38,391 nucleotides of DNA from NCBI GenBank assembly GCA_946410125.1, contig CAMJZF010000012.1, positions 1 through 38,391 of the forward strand, written 5' to 3'. This document shows positions 7,343-38,391 of this stretch, one piece after another (the first letter of the stretch is position 1; each line of letters begins with the position of its first letter). Below the pieces are notes generated by a model. That model searched no databases and was not told the origin of the DNA. It was given only the letters and a program-made list of their open reading frames with translations. The stretch comes from an uncultured Prevotellaceae bacterium (GTDB lineage Bacteria > Bacteroidota > Bacteroidia > Bacteroidales > Muribaculaceae). Made by a program: the position numbers and the translations under genes.

Positions 7343-7366
7343 TCTAATATTTTTTGAAACAACTTG

Positions 7367-7374
7367 CAAAGTTA
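7367..7374 (-). promoter_or_regulatory. -7 promoter element for the DUF6242 gene
   Basis: TAACTTTG on the minus strand, 25 bases upstream of the chosen ATG at 7342, fits the TAnnTTTG consensus. No clean TTTG was found at the -33 spacing, so the promoter is only half supported. Confidence 0.4.
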
Positions 7375-7576
7375 CAATAAAATCGCAAAAAAATGGCGTT
7401 TTGGTCTCAACATAATGTTATAAAATTGCAAAATGCCGACTTTTTCACGGTGTAAAATTAATATTTAGCATTCAATACACATACTTTAATTAAGATAATA
7501 AAAGGCAAAAAGGCGTTTTTTACACCTTTTTAACGAACACACCCCCCAGCGCCAACGCAAAAAAACGCGGGAGCCA

Positions 7577-13501: not shown

Positions 13502-13536
13502 TTTGTTTTTTATTCGAAATGTTTGTTGTAAATTTG
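13502..13536 (+). promoter_or_regulatory. Promoter of the peptidoglycan-salvage operon
   Basis: TAAATTTG at 13529-13536 matches TAnnTTTG. TTTG at 13502-13505 lies 23 bases upstream, at the long end of the accepted spacing. The ATG follows 34 bases after the -7 box. No other strong promoter is apparent before 29654. Confidence 0.5.
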
Positions 13537-13569: not shown

Positions 13570-16500
13570 ATGATAAAGAACAAGAAAACACTACTATTGG
13601 CTTTTGTTGCTGTCGTATTAGGCACCATGCAACTTCAAGCCATCGAGATTACCGAGACACAAAAACAGAGTGTGCAACAAGTAATCGCATCCAATTTGCC
13701 TGCCAACATGGGCATTGGACGACTTAAAGCTAACGCCATCAACATCGTTGAAGACTCCATCAAGGTTGACCTTAGCGAGAACTTTGGCGATGTTCCCTTC
13801 ACCCGCGAGAGCATCGACCGCCTAAAGGGCGACATAAAAAGTGCTTTAGGAGAGGAATTTAACGACAATAAGGTATTCCTCACCATCGCTGGCAACGACA
13901 TCGAGAACTATTTCTCAGAATTTGAGAATTCCTACAAGCGCAAGCACAATGCCTTTATCACGCCTCTTGACGAAAACAAGCTCTACAAGAAAGGATTGAG
14001 CGGCAACATTGTTGCTGTGTGGCCAAGCCATGGATGGTATTTTGAACCCTACCTTAACCGATGGGAATGGCAACGGGCACGCATGTTCCAAACCGTAGAA
14101 GACATGTACACCCACAGCTACATGATTCCGTTCATCATGCCCATGCTTGAAAATGCGGGAGCCTATGTGTGGGATGCTCGCGAACGTGACACACACAACT
14201 TTGGCGCGGTTGTCGACAACGATGGCGGCAACGCGCAGAATGGCTACCACGAGACTAACGGCAGTAAAAAATGGAAAAAAGGTGAAGGCAGCGGTTTTGC
14301 CTATAGCCGCAATGAATATAAAGACTTTGAGAATCCTTTTGAAGAAGGCAGTTATCGAATGATAGATGCCGAGAAAGACAAGAAAAAAGAAGCGACTGCC
14401 GCATGGGACGTCAATATGCCCAAAGCCGGAACCTATGCCATCTATGTAAGCTATAAATCATTGCCAAATAGCGCACATGATGCCACCTATACCATCAACT
14501 CCCTTGCTGGCGCACAGCAGTTCAAGGTCGACCAGTCAATGGCAGGGGGCGTGTGGGTTTATCTTGGCTCTTTCCAGCTTGCCAAGGGCATGAACAAGAA
14601 TGTGGTAACACTGAGCAACCACAGCAGCGACAAGAAAGCAGTCATCACTGCCGACGCCATCAAGGTGGGCGGCGGCAAGGGCAACATCGTGCGAAGAGTA
14701 GCCCTACCCACTCCCGAGAACATAGCCATTGCCGAGAAGAATGAAGACACCAAGTATCTGGGCAAGGAAGGTATCGACTACCAGTATGTAGGCAGTGGCG
14801 ACCACCCCTGGTTCCACCTGGGCTCACGCTACTTCCTGCAATGGTCGGGATTTCCCCACAAGGTTTACTCCACCAGCGACGGCATCAACGACTACGTTGA
14901 CGACTATCGAAGCCGTGGCGAGTGGGTCAACTGGCTTGCCGGAGGCAGCGACGTGTTGCCCAACAAGCCAGGACTTAAAGTTCCTGTTGATGTCTCGTTC
15001 TGCCTGCACACCGATGCCGGAACAACTCCCAACGACGACATCATTGGCACACTGCTCATCTACTGCACAACAAAGAATGGCAAAAAGTTTGGGAAATATG
15101 AGAACGGAACCCCTCGCGAACTTTCACGACAGTTTGCCAACATCGTTTCAACCGAGGTTGTCAATGACATTCGCGCCAAGTATGAGCCAAACTGGACTCG
15201 CCGTGGCATGTGGGACAAGAGCTACTACGAGGCTCGCGTGCCCGAAGTGCCCGCCTTGCTAATGGAGCTGCTCTCACACCAGAATTTTGCCGACATGAAA
15301 TACGGTCTCGACCCTGAGTTCCGTTTCGACGTTAGCCGCTCAATCTACAAGGGCATCGCCAAGTTCATATCCATGCGAGACCACCGCGATTGCGTTATTC
15401 AGCCCCTGCCTGTAAATTCTTTCTCAATCAACAAAGTGAGCGAAAGCCTTTACATGCTTAACTGGGAACCAACTCACGACCCATTATGTTCTAATGCCGA
15501 CGCCAAACAGTACATCGTGCTTGAGCAGGTGGGCATCGACGGCGGCTTCAAGGAGCTGGAAATAGTTGATTCTCCTCGCTACTCGGTGCACATCGATGAC
15601 AACGAGATTCACAGCTATAAAATCATTGCAATGAACGAGGGCGGACGCAGCTTCCCAAGCGAGACGCTAAGCATTGGTGTTGCCAAAAACAGCAAGGGCA
15701 CTGTGATGGTTGTCAACAACTTCACCCGCATCAGTGGTCCCGACTGGTTTGAGGGCGGCAAGATTGCCGGATTCTACGACAACAAAGACCACGGCGTGCC
15801 CTACATGGAGCAAATCAACTATCTGGGCTCGCAGTTTGAATTCCGCCGCCACCTTGAATGGCGCGACGACGACGCTCCAGGATTTGGAGCATGCCGCAGC
15901 AACCACGAGACACAGAACATTGCCGGTAACACTTTCAACTATCCAACAATGCACGGTGCCGCAATCATGAAAGCTGGCTATTCTTTTGTTTCAAGCAGCG
16001 CCAAGGCGATTGAGAATGGGAGTGTCGACCTCAGCAACTACTGCACTATCGACATGATTATGGGCAAGCAGAAAGAGATTCCTACCGGGCGCGGCGTTAA
16101 GCCATCACGTTTCAAAGCACTCACTGTTGGACTAATGGACGCTCTCACGGGCTATACGCGTGCCGGAGGCAACGTGCTCATGACGGGTGCCTACGTTGCA
16201 AGCGACATTTGGGACAAGGACAAACCGGCACAAAACGAGATGAACTTTGCCAAGAACGTGATGGGCTACACATGGGTTGATGGCCGCGCCACTCTTATGG
16301 GCGAGGTTTACAGCGTGCCCTCAAGCCTCAAGATAAGCGATGGCATGGGCCGCCTCTCATTCTACAACACCCTGAACAGCGATTTCTATGCCGTTGAATC
16401 GCCCGATGCCATCAAGGCAAGCGACGAGCGTGGCGCTACTATCCTGCGCTACAGCGAGAACAACATTCCTGCCGGAATTGCATCAAGTCGTAACGGTTAC

Positions 16501-16599
16501 AAGACTGTAGTTGTTGGATTCCCATTTGAGACCATTAAGAGTGAAACCGAGCGCGATACCTTTATGCAACGCGTACTCGATTTCTTCGAGAACAAATAG
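13570..16599 (+). CDS. Exported N-acetylmuramoyl-L-alanine amidase-like protein with golvesin-like insert
   Basis: 1009 aa. Signal peptide 1-24 (LLLAFVAVVLGTMQLQA). Residues 30-115 form a small alpha/beta domain. An Amidase_3-like core is split in two: part one (about 145-215) has VWPSHGWYFE with H154 and a nearby acidic ligand candidate (E177); part two (about 395-590) has CLHTDAG (H480) and LLMELLSHQN (E566), matching the zinc and catalytic positions. A golvesin C-terminal-like beta domain (about 275-370) lies between them. A fibronectin III-like domain (about 600-695) and a 300-residue Rossmann/GATase-like end follow. Expected role: removing stem peptides from glycan strands outside the inner membrane. 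Relatives are often labelled 'xanthan lyase', which the sequence does not support. First gene of the salvage operon. Confidence 0.82.
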   Translation: MIKNKKTLLLAFVAVVLGTMQLQAIEITETQKQSVQQVIASNLPANMGIGRLKANAINIVEDSIKVDLSENFGDVPFTRESIDRLKGDIKSALGEEFNDNKVFLTIAGNDIENYFSEFENSYKRKHNAFITPLDENKLYKKGLSGNIVAVWPSHGWYFEPYLNRWEWQRARMFQTVEDMYTHSYMIPFIMPMLENAGAYVWDARERDTHNFGAVVDNDGGNAQNGYHETNGSKKWKKGEGSGFAYSRNEYKDFENPFEEGSYRMIDAEKDKKKEATAAWDVNMPKAGTYAIYVSYKSLPNSAHDATYTINSLAGAQQFKVDQSMAGGVWVYLGSFQLAKGMNKNVVTLSNHSSDKKAVITADAIKVGGGKGNIVRRVALPTPENIAIAEKNEDTKYLGKEGIDYQYVGSGDHPWFHLGSRYFLQWSGFPHKVYSTSDGINDYVDDYRSRGEWVNWLAGGSDVLPNKPGLKVPVDVSFCLHTDAGTTPNDDIIGTLLIYCTTKNGKKFGKYENGTPRELSRQFANIVSTEVVNDIRAKYEPNWTRRGMWDKSYYEARVPEVPALLMELLSHQNFADMKYGLDPEFRFDVSRSIYKGIAKFISMRDHRDCVIQPLPVNSFSINKVSESLYMLNWEPTHDPLCSNADAKQYIVLEQVGIDGGFKELEIVDSPRYSVHIDDNEIHSYKIIAMNEGGRSFPSETLSIGVAKNSKGTVMVVNNFTRISGPDWFEGGKIAGFYDNKDHGVPYMEQINYLGSQFEFRRHLEWRDDDAPGFGACRSNHETQNIAGNTFNYPTMHGAAIMKAGYSFVSSSAKAIENGSVDLSNYCTIDMIMGKQKEIPTGRGVKPSRFKALTVGLMDALTGYTRAGGNVLMTGAYVASDIWDKDKPAQNEMNFAKNVMGYTWVDGRATLMGEVYSVPSSLKISDGMGRLSFYNTLNSDFYAVESPDAIKASDERGATILRYSENNIPAGIASSRNGYKTVVVGFPFETIKSETERDTFMQRVLDFFENK

Positions 16600-16655
16600 A
16601 CAACTTTCTTTTCCAATTATCAACGCCAATTAAATAATTATAATCATAATACATC

Positions 16656-18161
16656 ATGACAAAGATTAACTGTTTTATCCCCTTTGCCAATGCCGAGCAG
16701 GCACAGGCAACCGTCGATGGATTGAAAGCCAATCCATTAGTAAACAAAATCTACTTGCTTGCCAATGAAGAGGCTCAAGGCTCAATCGATGGCTGCGAGA
16801 TGATAAAGGTCAACAATCTCACTTCAACAGCCACCATCAAGGCCATCGCCAACCATAGCGATGCCTGTGTTACACTTCTTTACACCAAGTATGTAACATT
16901 GAAGTTTGCACCTTATGCCATCGAGCGTTTCGTGAAAATACTTGCCGACACCCAGAGCGGTATGGTCTATGCCGACCATTACAACGTAACCGAGAAAGGT
17001 GCCGACAAAGCGCCTGTCATCGACTACCAAATGGGGTCGCTTCGCGATGACTTCGATTTTGGATCAGTGCTTGTCTTCTGCAGCGAGTGCTTCAAGAAGG
17101 CTGCTGAGGCCATGAAATCTATATATGAGTTTGCCGGGCTCTATGACTTGCGCCTGAAATTATCACAACGTTGTCCCATCACTCACATCAATGAGTTCCT
17201 TTACAGCGATGTAGAGCTTGACACGCGCAAGAGCGGTGAAAAGATTTTTGACTACGTAGACCCACGCAACCGTGGCCGTCAAATCGAAATGGAAGCGGCT
17301 GTTACCGAGCACCTCAAGGAGATTGGCGGTTATCTGGCTCCCACCAAGGTCGTTGATGGGAAAGAAGTTCCCAACTTCAAGCACATTGAGTTTGATCACG
17401 ACAAGTTTGAGGTGGAAGCAACTGTTATGATTCCTGTGCGCAACCGCATCCGCACCATCCGAGACGCTATCGACAGCGTGCTTCGACAGAAGACCAACTT
17501 CAAGTTCAACCTTATGGTTGTTGACAACTTCTCGACCGATGGCACCCGCGAAGCAATAGCCGAGTATGATGACCCACGACTTATTCACATTATCGCCGAC
17601 CATTACGACATGGGAATTGGTGGTTACTGGAATCTCGCTGCACACCACGCTAAAGCCGGCAAGTTTGTGGTTCAGCTCGACAGTGATGACATGTACAAGG
17701 ACGAGAACACCTTGCAAACGATGGTCAACGCTTTCTATGAGCAGAATGTAGCTATGGTCGTTGGCACCTACCTGATGACCGACATAAACTGCAACCCCAT
17801 TCCTCCCGGTGTTATCGACCACAAGGAGTGGACTCCCGAAAATGGGCGCAACAATGCTCTGCGAATCAATGGACTTGGAGCACCACGCGCTTTCTACACT
17901 CCAGTGCTTCGCGATGTAATGCTTCCCAACGTGAGCTACGGTGAGGACTATGCTCTTGGATTGAACATTTCACGCACCTACCAGATTGGCCGCGTCTACG
18001 AACCAGTCTATATGTGCCGCCGTTGGGACGACAACAGCGATGCCAACGTCGACGTGGTTAAGATGAACAACAACAATCTCTATAAGGACCGCATCCGCAC
18101 TTGGGAGCTGCAAGCGCGCATCGCCTTGAACAAGAAAGAGTGCTGTTGCTGCTGTAAGTAA
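16656..18161 (+). CDS. Tandem GT2-type glycosyltransferase
   Basis: 501 aa, cytoplasmic, no signal or membrane helix. The C-terminal half (about 255-480) is a clear GT-A/GT2 domain: 'VMIPVRNRIRTIRDAIDSVL', VVDNFSTDGTREAI, and QLDSDDMY with the metal-binding DSDD at 342-345, then 'GEDYALGLNISRTYQIG'. The N-terminal half repeats the outline of a GT2 domain (FIPFANAEQA, MVYADHYN, GSLRDDFDFGSV, YDLRLKLS) but lacks the DxD segment, so it is probably non-catalytic. The protein ends KKECCCCCK, an unusual five-cysteine tail. Substrate unknown; its place inside a peptidoglycan-salvage operon, 12 bases before DUF4922, suggests use of an activated sugar. Confidence 0.85.
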   Translation: MTKINCFIPFANAEQAQATVDGLKANPLVNKIYLLANEEAQGSIDGCEMIKVNNLTSTATIKAIANHSDACVTLLYTKYVTLKFAPYAIERFVKILADTQSGMVYADHYNVTEKGADKAPVIDYQMGSLRDDFDFGSVLVFCSECFKKAAEAMKSIYEFAGLYDLRLKLSQRCPITHINEFLYSDVELDTRKSGEKIFDYVDPRNRGRQIEMEAAVTEHLKEIGGYLAPTKVVDGKEVPNFKHIEFDHDKFEVEATVMIPVRNRIRTIRDAIDSVLRQKTNFKFNLMVVDNFSTDGTREAIAEYDDPRLIHIIADHYDMGIGGYWNLAAHHAKAGKFVVQLDSDDMYKDENTLQTMVNAFYEQNVAMVVGTYLMTDINCNPIPPGVIDHKEWTPENGRNNALRINGLGAPRAFYTPVLRDVMLPNVSYGEDYALGLNISRTYQIGRVYEPVYMCRRWDDNSDANVDVVKMNNNNLYKDRIRTWELQARIALNKKECCCCCK

Positions 18162-18173
18162 ACATCACAATTG

Positions 18174-19073
18174 ATGAAACTTGTCAAAGATATAGAAAAT
18201 CTCTATTCTCGCGAGTTTAAGCAATGGGAACTGGCAAGGGAGAACTATGTCGCATTGTCTCACATGAACGTCAAGAAATTCAACTACAACGGTCGAGAGA
18301 TAGTTGCGCAGTTCAACCCTTGCCGCTATAACTCGGCAGCTGCTAAGATTGATTCGGAATCACTGAGCAAGCGTGAGTGCTTCCTGTGCTCCGAGCACCA
18401 GCCCATTGAGCAAGAAACTATTCTTTGGCAGGACACTTACAAGATTCAAATAAACCCCTACCCTATTTTCAACAGGCACCTCACGTTGAGCCACGTTGAG
18501 CATCAGCCACAAGCCATCGTTCCACACATTGACCAAATGATGCAGCTGGCAGCCCTGTTGCCAGGATACGTGCTATTCTACAATGGCCCGACTTGTGGAG
18601 CTTCAGCTCCCGACCACCTGCATTTTCAAGCAGCCCCATTTAGTGAGTTACCACTATGTAGAGAAGCCATTCACGATGATTGCGACCTGAGTGTTTATTT
18701 TCCCTTCTTTTACATTATCAGGAAGAAAGCAAGCGAAGCTAAGCACTGGTTTCACGTCTTTGAACAAGGCATGCAAGAAATCAATCAAAAGGAAGGCGAG
18801 TACCCCCAAAACGTACTGTGCTGGAGAACAAAAAATGAATGGCACATCATCATCATTCCGCGCTCCAAACATCGACCCGACTGCTACGGCTACGACGAAG
18901 AGCATTTTCTCTTAAGTCCGGCATCGGTCGAATTGACTGGAGTTTGGCCCATTGCACGAGAATGTGACTTTAACCGCATAACTCCTTCATTACTTCAATC
19001 CATAAGTGAAGAAGTAACCATAAGCGAAGATGAGAAAGAACAGATTTTAGAATACTTTATTAATAACGCATAA
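18174..19073 (+). CDS. DUF4922 protein, HIT/GalT-like predicted nucleotidyltransferase
   Basis: 299 aa from ATG at 18174 (a TTG three bases earlier also opens the frame). The motif 'GPTCGASAPDHLHFQAAPF' has H148-L-H150-F-Q152, the H-x-H-x-Q signature of the galactose-1-phosphate uridylyltransferase branch of the HIT superfamily. CFLC at 69-72 resembles the GalT zinc CxxC. 'INPYPIFNRHLTLSHVEHQPQ' is the conserved substrate-binding strand. Family knowledge: enzymes with this layout transfer or phosphorolyse nucleotide sugars through a histidine-NMP intermediate; DUF4922 itself has no proven reaction that I know of. Cytoplasmic, between GT2 and SpoIID genes with 12- and 6-base gaps, so tightly cotranscribed. 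Confidence 0.82.
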   Translation: MKLVKDIENLYSREFKQWELARENYVALSHMNVKKFNYNGREIVAQFNPCRYNSAAAKIDSESLSKRECFLCSEHQPIEQETILWQDTYKIQINPYPIFNRHLTLSHVEHQPQAIVPHIDQMMQLAALLPGYVLFYNGPTCGASAPDHLHFQAAPFSELPLCREAIHDDCDLSVYFPFFYIIRKKASEAKHWFHVFEQGMQEINQKEGEYPQNVLCWRTKNEWHIIIIPRSKHRPDCYGYDEEHFLLSPASVELTGVWPIARECDFNRITPSLLQSISEEVTISEDEKEQILEYFINNA

Positions 19074-19079
19074 AAGATT

Positions 19080-20408
19080 ATGGCACAAGTTCCCCAAGTT
19101 AGAGTAGGCATCATGAATGAGCCTATGGTAGAGTTCGTGCTTAACAACTACTACCTTGTCAACGGCGAGAAAGTCACTGGTAACCAGCTGGCTCGATGCG
19201 TCGATGGCATGGTGGAATGGAACGGACGCAAGTTTAACGACCTGCTATTTGAGCCTGTCAACGTCGACACCGACTCTTTTACTCTTGAAAACGTCACCAT
19301 TGGCGTTAGTTTCCACTGGAAACGCAAGGAGGACCAGACATTTCGTGGCGCGCTGCATCTCATCGTCGAGAATGACAAAATCACCACTATCAACATTCTC
19401 TCGATTGAGGAATATCTGCTTAGTGTAATTTCAAGCGAAATGAGTGCGACAGCATCGCTCGAACTCCTCAAAGCACACGCTGTGATTTCCCGCAGCTGGC
19501 TGCTTGCACAAATCCACAAAGACAACAGTGCTGCTGTCGACCACAATCCAGGGCTCCATCAGGAATTTGCTCCCGGCAACGACGATGAGGAAATCAAGTG
19601 GTGGGACCGAGACGACCATGTGAACTTCGACGTGTGCGCCGACGACCATTGCCAGCGCTACCAGGGCATCACACGGGCATCGACCGAGGCCGTGCGACAA
19701 GCCATCGAGGCTACTTGGGGGCAGGTTCTCATGTATGGTGGCGAGCTATGCGACGCGCGATTCTCAAAGTCGTGCGGTGGCGTATATGAGCAGTTCGAAA
19801 ACTGCTGGCAAGACGAGCACCACCCTTATCTTGTGGCACGACGAGACGATGACGACGAGATGAACTTCCCCGACCTGACGCGCGAAGACAATGCTGCCGA
19901 CTGGATTCTTTCTTCTCCACACGCTCACTGCAACACCACCGATAAGGAAATCCTCTCGCAGGTGCTCAACGACTACGACCAAGAGACCACCGACTTCTAT
20001 CGCTGGCGCGTGGAGTACACTCAAGATGAGCTTTCCAAACTCATCAAGGAGCGCACCGGCGACGACTATGGACGCATTATCGACCTGGAACCTGTTGCAC
20101 GCGGCACCAGCGGCAGGCTCTACAAACTGCGCATCGTGGGAGAGAAGATGACAAAGACCATTGGCAAGGAACTCACAATCCGCTATGCACTGTCGCCTAC
20201 TTGCCTTTACAGCTCAGCTTTCATTGTTGAGAAAATCAACGAAATCCCCGACGGATTCCCCGAGAAGTTCATCTTGCGCGGTGCCGGATGGGGTCACGGT
20301 GTGGGCCTGTGCCAGATTGGAGCCGCCGTTATGGGCGCAAAGGGCTATCACTACGAGCAAATTCTCCTACACTACTTTATCGATGCCCAAATCAAGAGCA
20401 TCTATTAA
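19080..20408 (+). CDS. SpoIID/LytB-domain protein
   Basis: 442 aa. The SpoIID core has 'SIEEYLLSVISSEMSATASL' with the glutamate (E120) at the position of the catalytic residue of SpoIID, AHAVISRSWLLAQ, 'FSKSCGGVYEQF', and the C-terminal GAGWGHGVGLCQIGAAVMG. SpoIID enzymes are lytic transglycosylases that cut peptide-free glycan strands to 1,6-anhydroMurNAc products. Fitting partners are the amidase two genes upstream, which would strip peptides, and AmpG downstream, which imports anhydro products. Odd: there is no signal peptide or membrane helix. The start MAQVPQVRVGIMNEP lies 6 bases after the previous stop, so as written the protein would stay in the cytoplasm. Confidence 0.88.
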   Translation: MAQVPQVRVGIMNEPMVEFVLNNYYLVNGEKVTGNQLARCVDGMVEWNGRKFNDLLFEPVNVDTDSFTLENVTIGVSFHWKRKEDQTFRGALHLIVENDKITTINILSIEEYLLSVISSEMSATASLELLKAHAVISRSWLLAQIHKDNSAAVDHNPGLHQEFAPGNDDEEIKWWDRDDHVNFDVCADDHCQRYQGITRASTEAVRQAIEATWGQVLMYGGELCDARFSKSCGGVYEQFENCWQDEHHPYLVARRDDDDEMNFPDLTREDNAADWILSSPHAHCNTTDKEILSQVLNDYDQETTDFYRWRVEYTQDELSKLIKERTGDDYGRIIDLEPVARGTSGRLYKLRIVGEKMTKTIGKELTIRYALSPTCLYSSAFIVEKINEIPDGFPEKFILRGAGWGHGVGLCQIGAAVMGAKGYHYEQILLHYFIDAQIKSIY

Positions 20409-20438
20409 CATTAAGCCAATTACTAAAACTTTATAACA

Positions 20439-21791
20439 ATGAGCGCATTAACTAAATTCAAGCAATCACCTTGGGCATGGGTTCCCACACTTTACTTTGC
20501 CGAAGGTATTCCTTATTTTATTGTCAACAACATCTCGGTGCTTATGCTCGCCAAGATGGGAGTGCCCAACGGACAAATGGCTTTATTTACAAGTCTGCTT
20601 TACCTACCCTGGACCATTAAGCCATTCTGGAGCCCATTTGTCGACATCATCAAGACAAAACGCTGGTGGGTAATTGCTATGCAAGTGCTCATGTCGGCGG
20701 CTTTTATCCTGCTCACACTGGCAATGCCGCATCCCGACCCTGCCACGATTGCAAGCGGGCAGACTCCTATCAGCCTGTTTTACATCACCTTAATATTGTT
20801 TACCATTACCGCCTTTGCTTCGGCAACTCACGACATTGCCGCCGATGGCTTCTACATGCTGGCGCTCACTCAAAAGAATCAAGCAGCTTTTGTTGGAATT
20901 CGCAGCACTTTCTATCGCCTCTCCTCAATCTTTGGACAAGGCGTTCTCGTTTACATTGCAGGCCGCATCGAGACAAGCACCGGCAATATTCCAATGTCGT
21001 GGTTCTGGACCATGCTCGTGACGGCTGTACTCTTTAGTGCCGTGACGCTATATCACACTTTCTTTATTCCAAAGCCGGCAGCCGACAAAGCTCACCTCGA
21101 CACCGAAACGACAGCCGACGGCATCAAGCAAAAGCCCACAGCAGGACAAATTTTCAAGGAGTTCGGACAGTCTTTTGCCACCTATTTCAAGAAACCAGGA
21201 CTCTGGCTCGCCATAGCTTTCATGCTCCTTTACCGCTTGCCCGAGGCTTTCCTTATCAAGATGTGCACTCCATTTCTTGTTGCAGGAAAAAACGTTGGTG
21301 GCTTAGGTCTGTCTACCGAAGAAGTGGGCATTGTCTATGGCACTATTGGAGTGCTTTTCCTCACCATTGGCGGCATTCTTGGCGGCATCTATGCTTCAAA
21401 GGTCGGTCTCAAGAAATCGCTTTGGTGGATGGCGGCTTGCATGACGCTGCCATGCCTCACCTTTGTATATCTTGCCATTTGGCAGCCCGAAAACATTGTT
21501 AATATCAGTATTGCTGTAGCTATTGAGCAGTTCGGTTACGGCTTCGGCTTCACAGCCTATATGCTCTATATGATTTACTTCTCGGAGGGTGAGTTCAAGA
21601 CTTCACACTATGCCATCTGCACTGCATTCATGGCATTGAGCATGATGATTCCGGGCATGTTTGCAGGCTACATTCAAGAAGCTATTGGCTATGTCAACTT
21701 CTTCTGGATGGTAATCGCCTGCTGCGTTGCCACCCTTATCGTGACCTTCCTCGCCGACCGCAAAATCGACCCCGACTACGGCCACAAATAA
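20439..21791 (+). CDS. ampG: AmpG-like muropeptide permease (MFS)
   Basis: 450 aa with about twelve hydrophobic segments. N-terminal 'WVPTLYFAEGIPYFIVNNIS', the loop LPWTIKPFWSPFVDIIKTKR and 'HDIAADGFYMLALTQKNQAA' match the AmpG branch of the major facilitator superfamily, which imports GlcNAc-anhydroMurNAc (with or without peptides) using the proton gradient. It sits in the inner membrane between the SpoIID and NamZ genes (gaps of 30 and 27 bases), and the context strongly favours a cell-wall fragment as substrate. A related anhydro-sugar or other muropeptide cannot be excluded. Confidence 0.87.
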   Translation: MSALTKFKQSPWAWVPTLYFAEGIPYFIVNNISVLMLAKMGVPNGQMALFTSLLYLPWTIKPFWSPFVDIIKTKRWWVIAMQVLMSAAFILLTLAMPHPDPATIASGQTPISLFYITLILFTITAFASATHDIAADGFYMLALTQKNQAAFVGIRSTFYRLSSIFGQGVLVYIAGRIETSTGNIPMSWFWTMLVTAVLFSAVTLYHTFFIPKPAADKAHLDTETTADGIKQKPTAGQIFKEFGQSFATYFKKPGLWLAIAFMLLYRLPEAFLIKMCTPFLVAGKNVGGLGLSTEEVGIVYGTIGVLFLTIGGILGGIYASKVGLKKSLWWMAACMTLPCLTFVYLAIWQPENIVNISIAVAIEQFGYGFGFTAYMLYMIYFSEGEFKTSHYAICTAFMALSMMIPGMFAGYIQEAIGYVNFFWMVIACCVATLIVTFLADRKIDPDYGHK

Positions 21792-21818
21792 ATCAATTCC
21801 ATAATTTAAATAATAGAT

Positions 21819-23078
21819 ATGAAACGACACATTATATTAATATTAATAGCAATGGCACTGGTGACTGTAATGGCCAGTGCCGTGGTGAAACCCGGCATTG
21901 AAGTGCTGCGCGATGGCGGCTTCAAGCAACTGCAGGGCAAGCGTGTGGGACTGGTTACCAATCCCAGCGGCATCGACAACAACCTTAAATCAACTGTCGA
22001 TATTCTAAACGATGCCCCCGGCGTGAAACTGGTGGCACTCTTCGGTCCCGAACACGGCGTGCGCGGCAATGCTCATGCCGGCGACAAAGTGGCCGATGCC
22101 GTCGACCCTGCTACTGGAGTGAAAATGTATTCGCTCTATGGCAAGACACATGAGCCCACTGCCGAAATGCTCAGCGACATTGACGTGCTCATTTATGACA
22201 TTCAAGACATTGGCTGCCGCAGCTACACTTTCTATGCGACAATGGGGGTGTGTATGCAGGCATGTGCCAAGCACAATAAAGAGTTTATGGTGCTCGATCG
22301 TCCCAACCCACTGGGTGGCAACAAGGTGGAAGGCAACCTTGTGGAACCGGGCTATTTCTCTTTTGTGAGCAAGTATTCCATCCCCTACCTCTATGGCCTC
22401 ACACCTGGCGAACTTGCCCAATACCTCAACGAGGAAGGCATCATAGCCAAGGAGTCGAAGACTGGCAAGAAGTGCCGCCTCACCGTCATCCCCATGGAAG
22501 GCTGGACACGCGACATGAAATTCCGCGACACTGGCATGCCGTGGGTATTGCCCTCGCCACAGATTCCGGCTCCCGAAAACGCATTCTTCTATCCCGTGAG
22601 CGGCATCCTTGGCGAGTTGTACATCTTCAACACCGGCATTGGCTACACTCTGCCTTTTGAATGCTTTGCCGCCTCGTGGATTGATGCCGAAGAACTCGCC
22701 AAAAACATGAATGCGTTAAACCTGCCGGGAATGCACTTCCGCCCCATCAACTACAAGCCGTTCTTTGCCTTGAGTGTAGCGGTCGACAAGTCGCTGCAAG
22801 AGGTTCACGGTGTGCAGATTTATATCACCGATTTTGACAAGGCCAACCTCGTCCTCACTCAATTCTACTTCCTGCAGGTGGTTCACGAGATGTACCCCAA
22901 TCAAGAGCTTTTTGAGCAAAATCCCAAGCGATATGCTATGTTTGACAAGGTGTGTGGCACCAAGGAAATACGAGAACGATTCTGCAAGCGATATAAAGTG
23001 GAAGACATCATCGACTATTTCAACAAAGACAACGAAACATTCAAGGCTAAATCATCTAAATATTACCTCTATAAGTAG
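21819..23078 (+). CDS. namZ: Exo-beta-N-acetylmuramidase NamZ (DUF1343, GH171)
   Basis: 419 aa. Signal peptide MKRHIILILIAMALVTVMAS. The DUF1343 signature 'LVTNPSGIDNNLKSTVDIL', FGPEHGVRG (E78, the predicted catalytic glutamate), 'IYDIQDIGCRSYTFYATMG', VLDRPNPLGG and 'YGLTPGELAQYLNEE' are all present at normal family length. NamZ removes MurNAc from the non-reducing end of peptide-free glycan fragments, as shown for Bacillus subtilis and relevant to Tannerella. Exported, so it would act in the periplasm and feed MurNAc to the MurT-like protein encoded two genes downstream. Confidence 0.92.
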   Translation: MKRHIILILIAMALVTVMASAVVKPGIEVLRDGGFKQLQGKRVGLVTNPSGIDNNLKSTVDILNDAPGVKLVALFGPEHGVRGNAHAGDKVADAVDPATGVKMYSLYGKTHEPTAEMLSDIDVLIYDIQDIGCRSYTFYATMGVCMQACAKHNKEFMVLDRPNPLGGNKVEGNLVEPGYFSFVSKYSIPYLYGLTPGELAQYLNEEGIIAKESKTGKKCRLTVIPMEGWTRDMKFRDTGMPWVLPSPQIPAPENAFFYPVSGILGELYIFNTGIGYTLPFECFAASWIDAEELAKNMNALNLPGMHFRPINYKPFFALSVAVDKSLQEVHGVQIYITDFDKANLVLTQFYFLQVVHEMYPNQELFEQNPKRYAMFDKVCGTKEIRERFCKRYKVEDIIDYFNKDNETFKAKSSKYYLYK

Positions 23079-23150
23079 TAAGTTGTAAGTTGTAAGTATT
23101 TAGCCTCATAGTTATTCTTAGTTATTCTTAGTTACTCCTATTCACTCCTA
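23078..23150 (+). repeat. Two short tandem repeats between namZ and the D-lactate dehydrogenase gene
   Basis: GTAAGTT is repeated three times at 23078-23098 (last unit GTAAGTA). Four 10-base units follow at 23109-23148 (TAGTTATTCT twice, TAGTTACTCC, TATTCACTCC). They fill almost the whole 81-base spacer, the second-longest gap in the operon. Confidence 0.7.
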
Positions 23151-23159
23151 AAAAAGAAA

Positions 23160-25952
23160 ATGGATTCCAGCCACAAGACATATCTCAACAGCATCAGGAA
23201 ATTCATTCCTAAAGAGCGCATCTACACCGATGACCTGCACTGCTTGGCATGGGGCACCGATGCGGGGTTCTACCGCAACATCCCGCAAGTGGTGGTGCGC
23301 TCAATTAATGAGCACGAGGTTTCAAGGTTACTCGCCATTGCCAATGAGTTGCAACTGCCGGTCACTTTTCGTGCAGCTGGCACCAGCCTGAGCGGACAGA
23401 CTAATACCGACTCTATTCTCATTGTAGCAGGGAAGAACTGGGAGAACTATGAGGTTGCCCCCGATGCCAGCTACATCAAGCTGCAGCCAGGACTTGTGGG
23501 CAGTGAGGTAGACAAGATTCTATCGCGACACAACCGTGCATTCACGCCCGACCCAGCCAGCAAAAATTCGGCAATGGTGGGTGGCATCGTCATCAACAAT
23601 GCCAGTGGCATGAGCTGTGGCACGCATGCCAACAGCGACCGCATGATGCTCTCGATGCGCATTGTGCTCGCCGACGGCACAATTCTTGACACAGGCGATG
23701 AGGCGAGCCGCGAAGCCTTCAAAAAAACTCATCCTGATTTCATCAAGCGCATTGAGGAAATTAGAGACAGGGTCATGGCCGATTCCGAGCTTGTCGACCG
23801 CATCAGCCACAAATACGACATCAAGAACGTTACAGGACTCAACATCTCGCCATTTGTCCGCTATAATGACCCCTTCGACATCATCACCCACCTCATAGTG
23901 GGCAGCGAAGGCACACTGGCATTTGCCAGCGAGTTCAAGATGAAGACAGGGCATCTCTATCCTTGCCGTGCCAGTGCCATGCTCTATTTTCAGGACATGC
24001 GAGAGTCGTGCGAGGCAGTAGTGGCGATGAAGAAAGGACCTGTCCACTGCGCCGAGATTCTTGATAAGAAATCTCTCGCAAGCGTCGACGACAACACCGG
24101 CGAAAACCTCACCGCAGTCTTAATCCAAACCTTTGCCGACAACAAAGACGAGCTGCAGAGCAACATCGACCAAATAATGGCAATTCTCAAGCCATTCCAC
24201 CTATATGTGCCAGCCAATTTCACCGACGACCCTAAGGTCTATGGAAAGTATTGGGCAATTCGCTCTGGCATCTTCCCCAGCGTGGGTGGCACTCGCCCAT
24301 TGGGCACAACGGTTCTCATCGAAGACGTAGCATTCCACATTGAGGATCTGCCACAAGCAACGGTCGACCTGGCACAACTGCTTGAAGACTATGGATATAA
24401 CGACAGTTGCATCTATGGTCATGCCCTTGAGGGTAATTACCATTTCATCATTTCTCAGTCTTTCGACACACAGGAGGAAATAAAGCGTTATGAGAATCTA
24501 ATGAGAGCTGTTGTGAACCTGGTCATCGACAAGTATGACGGTTCGCTAAAAGCCGAGCACGGTACTGGTCGCAACATGGCACCTTTTGTCAAGAAAGAAT
24601 GGGGCGAAAAGGCTTATCAGGTAATGCTCGACGTTAAGCGGCTTTTCGACCCGAAAGGCATTTTGAACCCTGGAGTAATATTCAACGACGACCCTAATTG
24701 CTTCATCAAGAACCTCAAACCAATGCCCTTGACCAACGACAACGTAAACAAGTGCATTGAGTGCGGATTCTGCGAGGTAAACTGTGTGAGCAGCGGTCTT
24801 ACTCTCTCGTCGCGACAGCGCATCATTGTGCAACGCGAGATTTCCCGACTTAAAGACACAGGCGAAGATCCCGAACGGCTCAAACGCCTTGAACAACAAT
24901 ACAAATACTATGGCGAAGCCACCTGCGCTGCCGACGGACTCTGCGCCACATCATGCCCAATGGGCATCAACGTGGGCAATTTGACACACGACCTGCGAGC
25001 TGAGCATCGTGGCAAAGGCTCAATGACTCATGCCATTGGCCACTATGCAGCACGAAACTTCTCTACTGTAAAAGGTGGTCTCAAGTCGTTGCTCTATATT
25101 GCCGACGCAGCCCATTGCTTACTGGGTGACAACGGCGTGAAAGCGGTGGGCAAAGCGATGCACGCCGTGGGGGCACCCTTATGGACTCCTTCCACTCCCA
25201 AGCCTCACAAGATGCACTTGGTTCAACAGCCGGTAAGCGATAAAAAAGTGGTTTACTTCCCCAGCTGCCTTAACCAAACTCTTGGCACAGCCAAGAACGA
25301 CAACTGCATCGACCTCGTTGACAAGGTTGTTTCTTTCCTCAACAAAGCAGGATGGGAAGTAATTTTCCCCGACAACATGAAAAACCTGTGCTGCGGAATG
25401 ATTTGGAACAGCAAAGGAATGCCCGACATTGCCAGGCAAAAGGCGCTTGAACTTGAGCAAGCCATGCTTAAGGCAAGCGAGAATGGCAAGTATCCTGTCA
25501 TGTGCGACCAAAGTCCGTGTCTTCACCACATGCGAGAGCATTTCACCCAGGTAATGCCTCTGGAACTCATGGAATTCGTCCACGACCATGTTGCTCAAGA
25601 CTTACAGTTCACACCCACCGACGAACCAATTGCTCTTCACCTCACTTGCTCTACACGGCTCATGAAGATTGACGACAAGGTTTTGAACTTGGCGAAACGC
25701 TGTTCACGCAATGTGCTCATTCCCGAGGGTGTCGGTTGCTGCGGGTTTGCAGGCGACAAGGGTTTCACACATCCCGAACTCAATGCCTATGCCCTGCGCA
25801 AACTGCGGCCGCAAATCGAGGCGGCAGGCATCTCTCGCGGCTTCTCCAACAGCCGCACATGCGAGATAGGCCTCACCACCCACAGCGGAGTTCCCTACCG
25901 GTCACTCATTTATTTGATAGACGAAGTAACAAATAAAAAAAATAATAACTAA
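23160..25952 (+). CDS. Fused FAD/Fe-S D-2-hydroxyacid (probably D-lactate) dehydrogenase
   Basis: 930 aa. The N-terminal FAD-binding type 4 domain (about 40-270: 'TFRAAGTSLSGQTNTDSILI', GGIVINNASGMSCG, GSEGTLAFASEFKM) and the FAD-oxidase C domain are joined to a GlcF-like iron-sulfur half. Its first ferredoxin cluster is C532, C535, C538, C542 (CIECGFCEVNC) and a second is C589, C595, C599. Two CCG cysteine-rich domains carry the pairs C744-C745 and C860-C861. This layout is that of D-lactate/glycolate dehydrogenases (YdiJ, GlcDF fusions) feeding electrons to quinone or another carrier. Inference: it oxidises the D-lactate that MurQ, encoded three genes downstream, splits from MurNAc-6-phosphate. 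Confidence 0.88.
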   Translation: MDSSHKTYLNSIRKFIPKERIYTDDLHCLAWGTDAGFYRNIPQVVVRSINEHEVSRLLAIANELQLPVTFRAAGTSLSGQTNTDSILIVAGKNWENYEVAPDASYIKLQPGLVGSEVDKILSRHNRAFTPDPASKNSAMVGGIVINNASGMSCGTHANSDRMMLSMRIVLADGTILDTGDEASREAFKKTHPDFIKRIEEIRDRVMADSELVDRISHKYDIKNVTGLNISPFVRYNDPFDIITHLIVGSEGTLAFASEFKMKTGHLYPCRASAMLYFQDMRESCEAVVAMKKGPVHCAEILDKKSLASVDDNTGENLTAVLIQTFADNKDELQSNIDQIMAILKPFHLYVPANFTDDPKVYGKYWAIRSGIFPSVGGTRPLGTTVLIEDVAFHIEDLPQATVDLAQLLEDYGYNDSCIYGHALEGNYHFIISQSFDTQEEIKRYENLMRAVVNLVIDKYDGSLKAEHGTGRNMAPFVKKEWGEKAYQVMLDVKRLFDPKGILNPGVIFNDDPNCFIKNLKPMPLTNDNVNKCIECGFCEVNCVSSGLTLSSRQRIIVQREISRLKDTGEDPERLKRLEQQYKYYGEATCAADGLCATSCPMGINVGNLTHDLRAEHRGKGSMTHAIGHYAARNFSTVKGGLKSLLYIADAAHCLLGDNGVKAVGKAMHAVGAPLWTPSTPKPHKMHLVQQPVSDKKVVYFPSCLNQTLGTAKNDNCIDLVDKVVSFLNKAGWEVIFPDNMKNLCCGMIWNSKGMPDIARQKALELEQAMLKASENGKYPVMCDQSPCLHHMREHFTQVMPLELMEFVHDHVAQDLQFTPTDEPIALHLTCSTRLMKIDDKVLNLAKRCSRNVLIPEGVGCCGFAGDKGFTHPELNAYALRKLRPQIEAAGISRGFSNSRTCEIGLTTHSGVPYRSLIYLIDEVTNKKNNN

Positions 25953-26016
25953 TAACAAGTCGTAGCCTTGACAATGTTCAAAACACATTGAGGAGAAATG
26001 CGACACTCTGTGAATT

Positions 26017-27174
26017 ATGGCAAAAGATTCTAAACGACTGCTCTCGCTCGACATTTTGCGAGGAATAACAATAGCTGGAATGCTACTGGTCAACAACCCA
26101 GGCACCTGGAGCCACCTGTACACGCCACTCCAACATGCCGAATGGATAGGACTCACACCCACCGACCTCGTGTTCCCTTTCTTCATGTTTGTAATGGGAG
26201 TATCTATGTATTTTTCCCTGCGCAAGTTCAACTTCAAGCCTACCGGCAGCCTTATGCTTAAGATTTGCCGGCGCACTATCGTTTTGTTCCTTATTGGATG
26301 GATGGTGCAATGGTTCGGCATGTGGCTACGAGGGCTTTACGACCCCGACTCTCACTTCTTCACCCGAATGTTTGGAGACCTGCGCATCTTGGGAGTGTTC
26401 CAGCGTCTTGCATTAGTCTACTTCTTTGGCTCGATGATTGCTGTGCTCTTCAAGAGCAAGTTCATTCCATGGATAATTGGAATCATTCTCGTTGCCTACG
26501 CTATTATTCTGGGGGTTGGAAATGGCTATGAATTCTCTCTCGACAACATTCTCTCGCGCGTCGATTGTGCCATTCTTGGCGAGGATCACATGTATCATGA
26601 GCATGCCTTTGGAGAGGAACTGGCACTCGACCCAGAGGGCATTTTAAGCACTCTGCCATGTATCGCCCACGTTCTCATTGGCTTCATGATGGGAAAGTGC
26701 ATAAACACCGTCTTCAATAACCGCGACCGCATCGTTGAGATTGCAGTGTGGGGAGCATTGATGCTACTCGTGGGATGGCTGCTGCAATACGGAATTCCAT
26801 GCAGCAAGAAGGCTTGGACTTCGAGCTATGTGCTCATCACCTGTGGCATGGCATCGTGCATCCTGGCAATGCTCATCTATGCTATCGACATTAAGGGACA
26901 CAATCGCTGGTGCCGATTCTTCCAATCGTTTGGAATAAACCCGCTCTTCTGCTACTTGGTTGGGACTATTCTCTCAATAGCTTTTGGGGCTGTACGCTTT
27001 GGAGTGAATACCGAGGGAGACCCTGTGACTGTTCATTCTCTAATTTATGACGCATGGAGTGCTGTAACCACAACTCCCGAGGCTGCTTCATGCCTCTATG
27101 CCATCACTTTCGTGCTCATCACCTGGTGCTTTGGCTACATTCTTTACAAGAAAAAAATATATATAAAAATTTAA
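26017..27174 (+). CDS. murT: DUF5009/HGSNAT-like membrane protein, probable MurNAc transporter MurT
   Basis: 385 aa with about ten transmembrane helices. The N-terminus 'SLDILRGITIAGMLLVNN' followed by HAEWIGLTPTDLVFPFFMF is the signature of the DUF5009 / heparan-alpha-glucosaminide acetyltransferase-like (NagX) family. In Tannerella forsythia a protein at the same position, in a murT-murK-murQ operon, was described as the inner-membrane MurNAc transporter. The gene order here is the same, with only 12 bases to murK. Transport is therefore inferred from synteny; by fold alone, acetyl transfer to a sugar is the competing explanation. Confidence 0.75.
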   Translation: MAKDSKRLLSLDILRGITIAGMLLVNNPGTWSHLYTPLQHAEWIGLTPTDLVFPFFMFVMGVSMYFSLRKFNFKPTGSLMLKICRRTIVLFLIGWMVQWFGMWLRGLYDPDSHFFTRMFGDLRILGVFQRLALVYFFGSMIAVLFKSKFIPWIIGIILVAYAIILGVGNGYEFSLDNILSRVDCAILGEDHMYHEHAFGEELALDPEGILSTLPCIAHVLIGFMMGKCINTVFNNRDRIVEIAVWGALMLLVGWLLQYGIPCSKKAWTSSYVLITCGMASCILAMLIYAIDIKGHNRWCRFFQSFGINPLFCYLVGTILSIAFGAVRFGVNTEGDPVTVHSLIYDAWSAVTTTPEAASCLYAITFVLITWCFGYILYKKKIYIKI

Positions 27175-27186
27175 ATATTCAAAACT

Positions 27187-28029
27187 ATGATTTTAATTGC
27201 TGACTGCGGATCTACCAAAATTGACTGGTGTCTGCTTAACGGAAAAAAGAAAGTTGCTCAAATCTTCACTACAGGCATGAACGCGCTGCTCATGACCGAG
27301 GAAGAAATGGCCGAATGCATCATGACCGAACTCATGCCAAGCCTGCAGGGCTATGAGGTTACCGAAATTTATTACTATGGTGCCGGCATTATCAGCGACA
27401 AAATCAAGAATCAGGTTGTAAATGCCTTAAAGCGCAATATGCCTAATGTCACAAAGATTGAAGTCGACAGCGACCTGCTGGCTGCCGCACGTGCACTTTG
27501 CCAGCATGAGCCTGGCATAGCTTGCATTCTCGGCACGGGAAGCAACAGCTGTTACTACGATGGTGAAAAGGTTGTTGACAACGTCTCGCCACTGGGTTAC
27601 ATCCTCGGCGATGAGGGTAGTGGTGCCGTGTTAGGCAAGCTGCTCGTGGGAGATGTGCTCAAGAAACAATTGCCCGAACACTTGTGTGAGAAGTTCCTCA
27701 AGGAGTATAACCTCGACCGTAACACAATCATCGAGCGCGTGTATCGCAAGCCTGCCGCCAACCGCTTCCTGGCTCAGTTTGCTCCTTTCCTTGAGCACAA
27801 CATCAACGAGCCTTCTATCAGGGCTATCGTGATGCGCTCGTTCACCGACTTCTTCGTTCGCAACGTGGCAAGCTATCCTAATTACAAGGAGTTGCCTTGC
27901 AATTTCGTCGGCTCTATTGCCCTGTTGCAAAAGGAGGTTCTCACCGAGGCTGCAAGCAAACTTGGCATCACCATTGGCACCATCATCCAAGCCCCAATGG
28001 AAGGGCTCATCAAGTTCCACTCCAATTAG
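27187..28029 (+). CDS. murK: MurNAc/GlcNAc kinase MurK (BadF/NagK family)
   Basis: 280 aa, cytoplasmic ASKHA-fold sugar kinase. The phosphate-1 motif LIADCGSTKIDW is intact (D6, G8, T10, K11), adenosine/phosphate-2 motif ACILGTGSNSCYYDG follows, then YILGDEGSGAVLGK and the C-terminal LPCNFVGSIALLQ. It should phosphorylate imported MurNAc (and possibly GlcNAc) at O6 with ATP, giving MurNAc-6-phosphate for MurQ, the next gene. The paralogue at 12504-13373 lacks the intact N-terminal motif, which makes this copy the likely active kinase of the locus. Confidence 0.9.
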   Translation: MILIADCGSTKIDWCLLNGKKKVAQIFTTGMNALLMTEEEMAECIMTELMPSLQGYEVTEIYYYGAGIISDKIKNQVVNALKRNMPNVTKIEVDSDLLAAARALCQHEPGIACILGTGSNSCYYDGEKVVDNVSPLGYILGDEGSGAVLGKLLVGDVLKKQLPEHLCEKFLKEYNLDRNTIIERVYRKPAANRFLAQFAPFLEHNINEPSIRAIVMRSFTDFFVRNVASYPNYKELPCNFVGSIALLQKEVLTEAASKLGITIGTIIQAPMEGLIKFHSN

Positions 28030-28097
28030 TCTTTTAGTTGTTGTATTTTTTGTTTTTGTCAATTTCACTAACCAATAAACTCACACTTCGACAAAAC

Positions 28098-28127
28098 AAA
28101 AACTTTAAACTAAAAAACTTTGAACTA
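28098..28127 (+). repeat. Direct 15-bp repeat in the murK-murQ spacer
   Basis: AAAAACTTTAAACTA at 28098-28112 and AAAAACTTTGAACTA at 28113-28127 are adjacent and differ at one base; a shorter relic follows. The spacer is 110 bases, unusually long for this operon. Confidence 0.6.
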
Positions 28128-28139
28128 AAACCTAAAATT

Positions 28140-28970
28140 ATGGCTTTTATTAAAATTAGCGAACAACCGTCTCTCTACAACGATCTCGAGAAGAAAAGCG
28201 TGCATGAGCTGCTCACCGAGATCAATCAGGAAGACCACAAGGTTGCCGATGCCGTACAAAAGACAATTCCACAAATCGAGCGACTCGTAACAGAAATTGT
28301 CGAGCGAATGAAGCGCGGCGGACGCATCTTCTACATGGGAGCCGGCACCAGTGGAAGGCTGGGAGTGCTTGATGCAAGCGAAATTCCTCCTACTTTCGGC
28401 ATGGATCCAGGGTGGATTATCGGCCTTATTGCCGGCGGTGACTACGCGCTGCGCAATGCCGTTGAAAATGCCGAAGACGATGAGGCTCAAGCTTGGAAAG
28501 ACTTACAGCAGTATAACATCACAAGCAACGATACAGTCATTGGCATCGCTGCAAGTGGAACCACGCCCTATGTTATAGGTGCTCTGCGAGATGCCAGAGC
28601 ACACGGATGCCTCACGGCTGCCATCACCAGCAATCCCGATGCACCGGTTAGCGAAGTTGCCGAGATTCCCATTGAGATGATTGTTGGACCAGAATATGTT
28701 ACCGGAAGTAGCCGCATGAAGAGTGGCACAGGGCAGAAACTCATCTGCAACATGATATCAACAAGCGTGATGATTCAAATGGGGCGCGTCAAGGGCAACA
28801 AAATGGTAAACATGCAGCTCACCAACAAGAAACTTGTGGACCGGGGCACTCGCATGGTGGTCGACGAACTCGGGCTCTCTTACGATGAGGCTAAGCGTCT
28901 GCTACTTCTTCACGGCAGCGTGAAGAAAGCATGCGATGCCTATCGTGGCATCTTGCAACAACAAGCATAA
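28140..28970 (+). CDS. murQ: N-acetylmuramic acid 6-phosphate etherase
   Basis: 276 aa from ATG at 28140; the open frame extends 34 codons upstream but that part is A/T-rich spacer. SIS-domain protein with the MurQ signature GAGTSGRLGVLDAS-E-x-PPTFG. E81 and E112 fall where E. coli MurQ has its catalytic E83 and E114; GIAASGTTPYVIGAL and 'SSRMKSGTGQKLICNMIS' are also conserved. It cleaves the lactyl ether of MurNAc-6-phosphate to give GlcNAc-6-phosphate and D-lactate in the cytoplasm. Neighbours supply the kinase (upstream) and a dehydrogenase for the D-lactate (three genes upstream). Confidence 0.95.
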   Translation: MAFIKISEQPSLYNDLEKKSVHELLTEINQEDHKVADAVQKTIPQIERLVTEIVERMKRGGRIFYMGAGTSGRLGVLDASEIPPTFGMDPGWIIGLIAGGDYALRNAVENAEDDEAQAWKDLQQYNITSNDTVIGIAASGTTPYVIGALRDARAHGCLTAAITSNPDAPVSEVAEIPIEMIVGPEYVTGSSRMKSGTGQKLICNMISTSVMIQMGRVKGNKMVNMQLTNKKLVDRGTRMVVDELGLSYDEAKRLLLLHGSVKKACDAYRGILQQQA

Positions 28971-28982
28971 AAACAACCGATT

Positions 28983-29654
28983 ATGAAACGCATTATTTTA
29001 TTATTAATAGCTTTTTCTACAGCTTTTATAGCTTTGATGGCTCAAGCTCCGGCTCGCACTGCCAATCAGGACAAATACTATGTGCGACGCGCTACCCACT
29101 TCGATGACTTGCCTGTATATCGCAACGACATCATCATGCTTGGCAACAGCCTTACCGATGGTGCCGAGTGGAACGAGCTGCTGCGCAACCCGCGCGTGAA
29201 GAACCGTGGCATTATTGGCGACATCGTGCAGGGACTTTACGAGCGCATGGAACCTATCCTGAAGGGGAAACCTCGCAAAATCTTTATTCTCAGTGGGGTC
29301 AACGATGTGTCGCATGGTGTTGACGGCGACAGTATTGGGCGAGCCATGGAAAAACTCATTATCCTCATTAAGCAACGTTCACCACGCACTAAAATCTATC
29401 TCCAGTCGATGCTACCCTTCAACACCGACGTGCAGATGTGGAAACTGCTAAAAGACCGCGAGCAGGTTGTCATTGATGGCAATCGAGCCATGGAGGAGGT
29501 TGCAAGACGCCAGCATGTCACTTGGATAAACCTCTACCCTCTCTTTGTTGATAAAAACGGCAAGCTGCGTGAAGAACTCACCAACGACGGCTTGCATCTG
29601 TTGGGACCAGGCTACATTATTTGGCGAGATGCCATTCTCAAGTACACTAAGTAG
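28983..29654 (+). CDS. Exported SGNH/GDSL-family esterase
   Basis: 223 aa with signal peptide MKRIILLLIAFSTAFIALMA, cleaved near AQAPA. SGNH blocks: IIMLGNSLTDG (nucleophile S56), NRGIIGDIV (Gly), LSGVNDVSHG (Asn) and NDGLHLLGPGY (D202, H205). This is the single-domain lipase/acylhydrolase type, located in the periplasm or outer membrane. It begins 12 bases after murQ and ends the operon, just before a terminator. Context suggests removal of an ester substituent, perhaps O-acetyl groups on MurNAc, before uptake. That substrate is inference; a glycan or lipid ester is equally possible from sequence alone. Confidence 0.85.
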   Translation: MKRIILLLIAFSTAFIALMAQAPARTANQDKYYVRRATHFDDLPVYRNDIIMLGNSLTDGAEWNELLRNPRVKNRGIIGDIVQGLYERMEPILKGKPRKIFILSGVNDVSHGVDGDSIGRAMEKLIILIKQRSPRTKIYLQSMLPFNTDVQMWKLLKDREQVVIDGNRAMEEVARRQHVTWINLYPLFVDKNGKLREELTNDGLHLLGPGYIIWRDAILKYTK

Positions 29655-29683: not shown

Positions 29684-29725
29684 CAGGCTCCCGGGTACGT
29701 GCTCAGGAGCCTGAATATTTATTCG
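29684..29725 (+). terminator. Terminator of the peptidoglycan-salvage operon
   Basis: CAGGCTCC (29684-29691) and GGAGCCTG (29706-29713) form an exact 8-bp stem with a 14-base loop, followed by AATATTTATT. It lies 30 bases after the SGNH esterase stop. Confidence 0.65.
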
Positions 29726-38310: not shown

Positions 38311-38391
38311 GCTTTTCAGCTTGTAAAAATAGAAAGAACTTGCGGCATCTCCAAAAATATGCCACAAGATTTACCACTTTTACACCAAAAT

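Follow-up and report, generated by a model that had tools for sequence, protein, structure and literature searches.

Gene content and order of the block

The window, by which we mean the whole stretch of 38,391 nucleotides from an uncultured Bacteroidales bacterium (probably a gut dweller), contains a block of eleven genes. Three of these, encoding a family 2 glycosyltransferase (GT2), a DUF4922 protein and a SpoIID/LytB-domain protein (together, the trio), are our main concern. The original prediction, made from the sequence, was that the block is a complete and expanded peptidoglycan-salvage operon. We find that this type of operon is largely published, and that the trio within it is very tightly co-inherited and probably cytosolic. 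Its enzymes may degrade wall fragments taken up by the cell through a route not yet described.

All eleven predicted plus-strand open reading frames (ORFs) are present at 13570-29654 in the expected order, separated by 6-110 bases when MurQ is counted from ATG 28140 (Table 1). Their family names are borne out, at lower strength for the amidase, AmpG, the MurT-like protein and MurK, whose matches fall below model cut-offs. Where a terminator was foreseen, at the end of the block, lies a stable, terminator-like hairpin with a weak U run, which is absent from the list of a generic terminator scan. A Bacteroidetes-type promoter pattern has six matches in the window against 1.25 expected from shuffling; one lies within the NamZ coding region and none in the internal spacers of the block. 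The promoter-like element in the leader of the amidase gene was also seen by eye in the aligned leaders of three related loci (L079, L084 and L095) and not in a fourth (L120).

Table 1. Features of the block and its flanks
Feature	Position	Strand	Evidence
MurNAc/GlcNAc kinase paralogue, K1058 type, upstream	12504..13373	+	best PDB match 8ow7/8oqk
Bacteroidetes-type promoter pattern TTTG-N-TANNTTTG	13502..13536	+	leader before amidase gene
N-acetylmuramoyl-L-alanine amidase-like protein, exported	13570..16599	+	Amidase_3 (23.7 bits, under cut-off of 27) with inserted Golvesin_C
GT2 glycosyltransferase	16656..18161	+	catalytic second half with DSD motif; degenerate, GT-A-like first half
DUF4922, Ap4A-phosphorylase/GalT-type fold	18171..19073	+	family match and fold; ATG 18174 likelier start than listed TTG 18171
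SpoIID/LytB-domain protein	19080..20408	+	domain match; start not signal-peptide-like
AmpG muropeptide permease, short type	20439..21791	+	TIGR00901 match under cut-off
NamZ exo-beta-N-acetylmuramidase	21819..23078	+	NamZ_N and NamZ_C; exported-type start
FAD/Fe-S 2-hydroxyacid dehydrogenase, D-lactate from context only	23160..25952	+	family and PDB matches
MurT-like (NagX/DUF5009) membrane protein	26017..27174	+	matches under cut-offs; 49% to T. forsythia protein (L095)
MurK MurNAc kinase	27187..28029	+	BadF-type; SPL residues in translation
MurQ MurNAc-6-phosphate etherase	28140..28970	+	TIGR00274, 314 bits (cut-off 302)
SGNH/GDSL esterase	28983..29654	+	Lipase_GDSL_2; exported-type start
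Terminator-like hairpin, weak U tract	29684..29713	+	-20.1 kcal/mol, z -3.06

The putative zinc ligands of the amidase (H154, E177, H480 and E566) are conserved in at least 97% of 37 aligned rows. MurK is a BadF-type kinase that falls under the Pfam cut-off but is close to the solved MurK, and its orthologues also show the SPL residues, which admit the lactyl group in the N-acetylmuramic acid (MurNAc) kinase (PMC10465942). The predicted D-lactate dehydrogenase is an FAD/Fe-S 2-hydroxyacid oxidase. GlcD/YdiJ-type and similar models match it far below their cut-offs, no D-lactate-specific model is among the matches listed, and the closest PDB entry, the lactate dehydrogenase LctD, aligns over residues 10-181 (E 1e-22); the D-lactate assignment comes by context only, from its place before murTKQ. 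Since MurQ releases D-lactate, the enzyme would fit the disposal of that product.

A muropeptide-salvage operon shared with Tannerella forsythia

In T. forsythia, the genes Tanf_08345-08385 form one transcript by reverse transcription PCR, which starts 17 bp upstream of the first gene and ends with murQ; they are annotated 'xanthan lyase', gtf, gtf, lytB, ampG, ybbC and murTKQ (PMC5388701). An operon of this type would be one transcript controlled by a GppX-type regulator; the window shows the promoter and terminator patterns described above. The contig that carries this operon (L095) encodes amidase, GT2, DUF4922, SpoIID, AmpG, NamZ, MurT, MurK and MurQ in the order and on the strand of the window, at 38-75% identity (tblastn). 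The window keeps the nine-gene order on one strand with a single inserted gene, the dehydrogenase; L095 gave no match to a dehydrogenase in the interval from NamZ to MurT and none to an SGNH gene. Because nine of the eleven genes are already published as one T. forsythia transcript, the block as a whole is not new. The call of a peptidoglycan-salvage operon is right, the estimate that known salvage covers seven or eight of the genes was too low, and 'expanded pathway' applies to the dehydrogenase and the esterase and not to the other nine.

Gene order was compared in 80 named loci, the best 80 of 557 relatives, so that counts lean toward close kin; order here means order among the sought genes, and others may intervene (in Bacteroides clarus the amidase and GT2 are about 1.9 kb apart). 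Of these 80 loci, 4 have the nine-gene order that lacks the dehydrogenase. The ten-gene order that includes it occurs in 11, including B. clarus, B. graminisolvens, Mediterranea massiliensis and Muribaculaceae, and the full eleven-gene order in 7. The dehydrogenase and the SGNH esterase are recurrent additions to the operon.

The closest named relative in this set, a member of the Muribaculaceae from the omasum of water buffalo, has a SpoIID 90% identical to that of the window. A sister genome (L079) shares 85-97% identity with the window in most genes of the operon, and its MurT is 74% identical over most of its length. DUF4922 (18174-19070) and AmpG (20439-21791) are only about 40% and 42% identical, respectively, and the L079 AmpG is longer (ORF of 677 residues). 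The window AmpG is instead 80% identical to that of B. clarus, with GT2, SpoIID and NamZ at 55-67%. AmpG types seem to have been swapped in place, and DUF4922 seems to have been replaced or to evolve fast. L079 also encodes a second, divergent GT2 (6062-7504; 480 residues, 49% identical to the window GT2) directly before the orthologous one. A sodium:solute symporter, a possible alternative sugar importer, lies on stretches of four genomes that carry MurK/MurQ or SpoIID (L035:1508-2974 and the same cluster in L038, L057 and L060; Pfam was run on L035 only).

Family assignment of the trio

The 'tandem' GT2 of the original prediction stands for its second half, a clear domain to which the Pfam Glycos_transf_2 match is confined (residues 256-386). 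The first half is degenerate, and comparison of the two halves as profiles (E 0.0016, probability 16%) lends weak support to a second domain. Among proteins of solved structure, the nearest in sequence is chondroitin polymerase K4CP (2z86/2z87), a two-domain enzyme that aligns with the second half at E 6e-21; the first half of the window protein is short by comparison.

DUF4922 has the fold of the superfamily of Ap4A (diadenosine tetraphosphate) phosphorylase and GalT, together with its HxHxQ catalytic motif; phosphorolytic activity is putative. In structural alignment it is 18% identical to the yeast Ap4A phosphorylase Apa2 (4i5t), and it has invariant C69 and C72. Plant GDP-L-galactose phosphorylase is presumably also related. 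The DUF4922 superfamily domain is present in some of these plant enzymes (PMC9871823).

SpoIID matches TIGR02669 at 168 bits, above the cut-off, and has this domain, a catalytic Glu motif and a Cys-rich, zinc-like motif in common with SpoIID/LytB lytic transglycosylases of B. subtilis, C. difficile, B. anthracis (4RWR) and Waddlia. It differs from the studied proteins in that its start is not signal-peptide-like, its domain match is longer, it usually adjoins AmpG, and in many genomes it is fused to or adjoins DUF4922. The catalytic assignments of SpoIID and DUF4922, which draw in part on general knowledge of their families, are putative.

Co-inheritance of the trio

We surveyed an order sample of 119 genomes and a phylum sample of 296, 413 in total (G000, the genome of the window, and G059 are in both). 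DUF4922 was found in 26 of the 119 order genomes. The window GT2 has matches in 27, of which the 26 at E <1e-100 are exactly the DUF4922 set; the remaining one has 29% identity. Of the 119 genomes, 68 have SpoIID domains; those of the module type, as defined by match span and alignment (on comparison G004 proved to be of another kind; G077, span 864, lay outside this comparison), are restricted to the same 26 genomes and G096. All three genes consequently agree in presence or absence in 118 of 119 genomes, the exception, G096 (L065), having a module-type SpoIID alone with no detectable GT2 or DUF4922.

Weak DUF4922 matches (G145, G254 and G278) were removed before the phylum counts, as were SpoIID matches L066 (47 bits) and L097 (no start) before counting, and the phylum search for GT2 scored at most five candidates per genome, that for SpoIID nearly so. 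With these settings DUF4922 is strong in 41 of 296 phylum genomes; 40 of them have GT2, 40 have module SpoIID and 39 have all three (G274 is without GT2 and G341 without SpoIID). None of the trio genes was found in the other 255 at the thresholds used.

All three genes lie within 10 kb in 16/26 order and 14/39 phylum genomes, and no two do so in three and five, respectively. Genes are counted as linked when they share a contig and are at most 10 kb apart, and several assemblies are fragmented. As the trio co-occurs though often unlinked, linkage alone cannot explain its co-inheritance. In GlmS trees of 99 of the 119 order genomes, which hold 20 of the 26 trio genomes (G000, G028, G059, G105, G108 and G109 have no place in them) and in which most branches are weakly supported, trio presence differs in 5 (quick tree) or 8 (careful tree) independent pairs on supported branches. 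Fusions were found as well, DUF4922-SpoIID three times and GT2-DUF4922 once. If DUF4922 were an ordinary Ap4A phosphorylase that controls a stress nucleotide, and the trio had no joint pathway, neither its fusion to both partners nor the near-perfect concordance across the order would be expected; we consider this very improbable.

AmpG is the usual companion of the trio. In 24 of 26 order genomes it shares an examined stretch with one or more trio genes (about 7 kb away in G002); for G002 and G030 the stretches that hold GT2 are not part of this count. Within the 80 named loci (the best 80 of 557 relatives), it is at the same locus in 42 of the 43 with 9 kb flanks on both sides and is the next sought gene after SpoIID in 73 of 80. 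NamZ, MurK and MurQ are unmatched near the trio in a number of named loci, for example Segatella buccae L133 and Prevotella pallens L139.

Cellular location of the trio

Export by signal peptide is usual among studied SpoIID/LytB members, without being a defining trait. None of 105 module SpoIID proteins reaches an N-terminal hydropathy of 2.4 (maximum 2.31) and 8 reach 2.0, compared with 16 and 17, respectively, of 20 control SpoIID proteins from the same order (chosen from high in the SpoIID match list; three look truncated). The value of 2.0 is reached by 6/89 GT2 and 0/84 DUF4922 proteins. These starts, together with the fusion of SpoIID to an Ap4A-phosphorylase-like domain, suggest that the trio is probably cytosolic. 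If so, SpoIID would be a member of a lytic-transglycosylase family acting inside the cell; no such member was found in the literature searched (titles and the beginnings of abstracts; few subscription papers).

Alternatively, the trio could make or remodel an envelope glycan or glycoprotein and be merely co-regulated with salvage, SpoIID reaching the periplasm by an unidentified route. The T. forsythia work termed the operon glycosylation-related (PMC5388701), GT2 is nearest by sequence to a chondroitin polymerase, and loci such as L133 and L139 fit a trio detached from NamZ, MurK and MurQ. We nevertheless think this rather unlikely, given the lack of signal-peptide-like starts in SpoIID, the DUF4922 fusions and the constancy of AmpG at the well-flanked loci. 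A paper on O-glycosylation (PMC12871550), checked for peptidoglycan, GT2 and AmpG, has nothing on the trio locus in the passages searched.

Proposed pathway

We lean, with modest confidence, towards the block being the Bacteroidales counterpart of the muropeptide-salvage operon of T. forsythia, to which a D-lactate-type dehydrogenase and an SGNH esterase have been added, and towards the trio being an obligate cytosolic module that acts on AmpG-imported disaccharides. AmpG import and the functions of MurT, MurK and MurQ are taken from the T. forsythia literature, as is the single transcript (PMC5388701). Outside the cytoplasm, the amidase would remove stem peptides and NamZ would liberate MurNAc. 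AmpG would import disaccharides and MurT would import MurNAc, which MurK and MurQ would convert to N-acetylglucosamine (GlcNAc)-6-phosphate and D-lactate; the dehydrogenase would oxidise the lactate. For the trio itself, we guess that SpoIID works on the 1,6-anhydro (or MurNAc) end, that GT2 running in reverse transfers GlcNAc to a nucleotide, and that DUF4922 releases GlcNAc-1-phosphate from this nucleotide sugar by phosphorolysis, with MurNAc left for MurK. That Bacteroidota split disaccharides in the cytosol by precisely these three enzymes, in place of NagZ and AnmK and with the bond energy saved, is a tentative and doubtful proposal. The handling of imported wall fragments in T. forsythia was called an open question in 2020 (PMC7670621). 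The trio, kept or missing as a unit in nearly all 413 sampled genomes and usually beside AmpG, provides three concrete candidate genes and makes that question testable.

A number of points weigh against the proposed pathway. Lytic transglycosylases cut MurNAc-GlcNAc bonds and a GlcNAc-MurNAc disaccharide has none, so SpoIID would need the anhydro ring or larger fragments as its target. Reversal of GT2 is uphill unless it is pulled. The lack of signal-peptide-like starts was judged from hydropathy rather than with a trained predictor. Full-length MurQ (at least 166 bits) is present in 15/26 trio genomes versus 9/93 non-trio genomes of the order and missing from 11/26 trio genomes. For the co-occurrence with murQ on which the original prediction depends, the outcome is mixed, an association between separable parts: the three genes keep together much more closely than they keep with MurQ, and the trio is not tied to MurNAc catabolism. 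The missing MurQ, along with the membership of DUF4922 in the GalT/Ap4A-phosphorylase superfamily, would suit an anabolic trio that recharges salvaged sugars to UDP-MurNAc or UDP-GlcNAc for wall synthesis, in the manner of the AmgK/MurU bypass. Such a bypass needs neither a glycosyltransferase nor a lytic transglycosylase, and we regard it as distinctly unlikely.

AnmK and NagZ also count against the proposed catabolic module. In the order, AnmK is found in 2/26 trio genomes (one, G038, a partial match) versus 78/93 others. In the phylum the figures are 17/41 (one weak) versus 190/255, so replacement of AnmK is not clean, and among the eight supported pairs of the GlmS tree AnmK changes the same way as the trio in none, the opposite way in about four and not at all in about four (median p 0.125). 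The idea that the trio simply replaces AnmK, weaker in the phylum and not significant on the tree, remains only a hint. With the NagZ model NF003740, 46 of 50 genomes have a match at 1e-30, with 0 above its cut-off. Of the 51 matches listed, 30 NagZ-type loci were inspected (14 trio, 16 non-trio). The N terminus is of exported type in 28, judged at the most hydrophobic candidate start, while G025 is borderline and G037 ambiguous. A cytosolic NagZ was not seen in these 30 loci, a result that does not separate trio from non-trio genomes. Exported-type, NagZ-like GH3 enzymes in both groups could cleave the disaccharides before import, and the idea that trio genomes are those without NagZ was rejected. 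NamZ was likewise rejected as a separator, being found in 108/119 order genomes. In the genome of the window (G000, 83.8% complete), AnmK was not found and the only NagZ-type match is exported-looking and on a different contig; to call the pathway 'complete' was too strong.

Neighbouring genes

The kinase gene upstream of the block, probably outside the operon, has T. forsythia K1058 as its best PDB match (E 2.3e-101). A K1058-type kinase lies upstream in T. forsythia as well, in the opposite orientation. The phosphate loop of the window protein reads ESSSTHSEW, where that of K1058 in L095 reads ESGSTKTEW; in six related loci the loop is ESS(S/T)TR or DSSSTR. The activity of the window protein may be altered. 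Directly 3' of the operon, at 29839-33894, is a large C10-family cysteine peptidase with a Spi inhibitor domain and a start that looks exported by eye. On the minus strand, 36685-38367 encodes an AAA ATPase carrying a DUF4435 domain.

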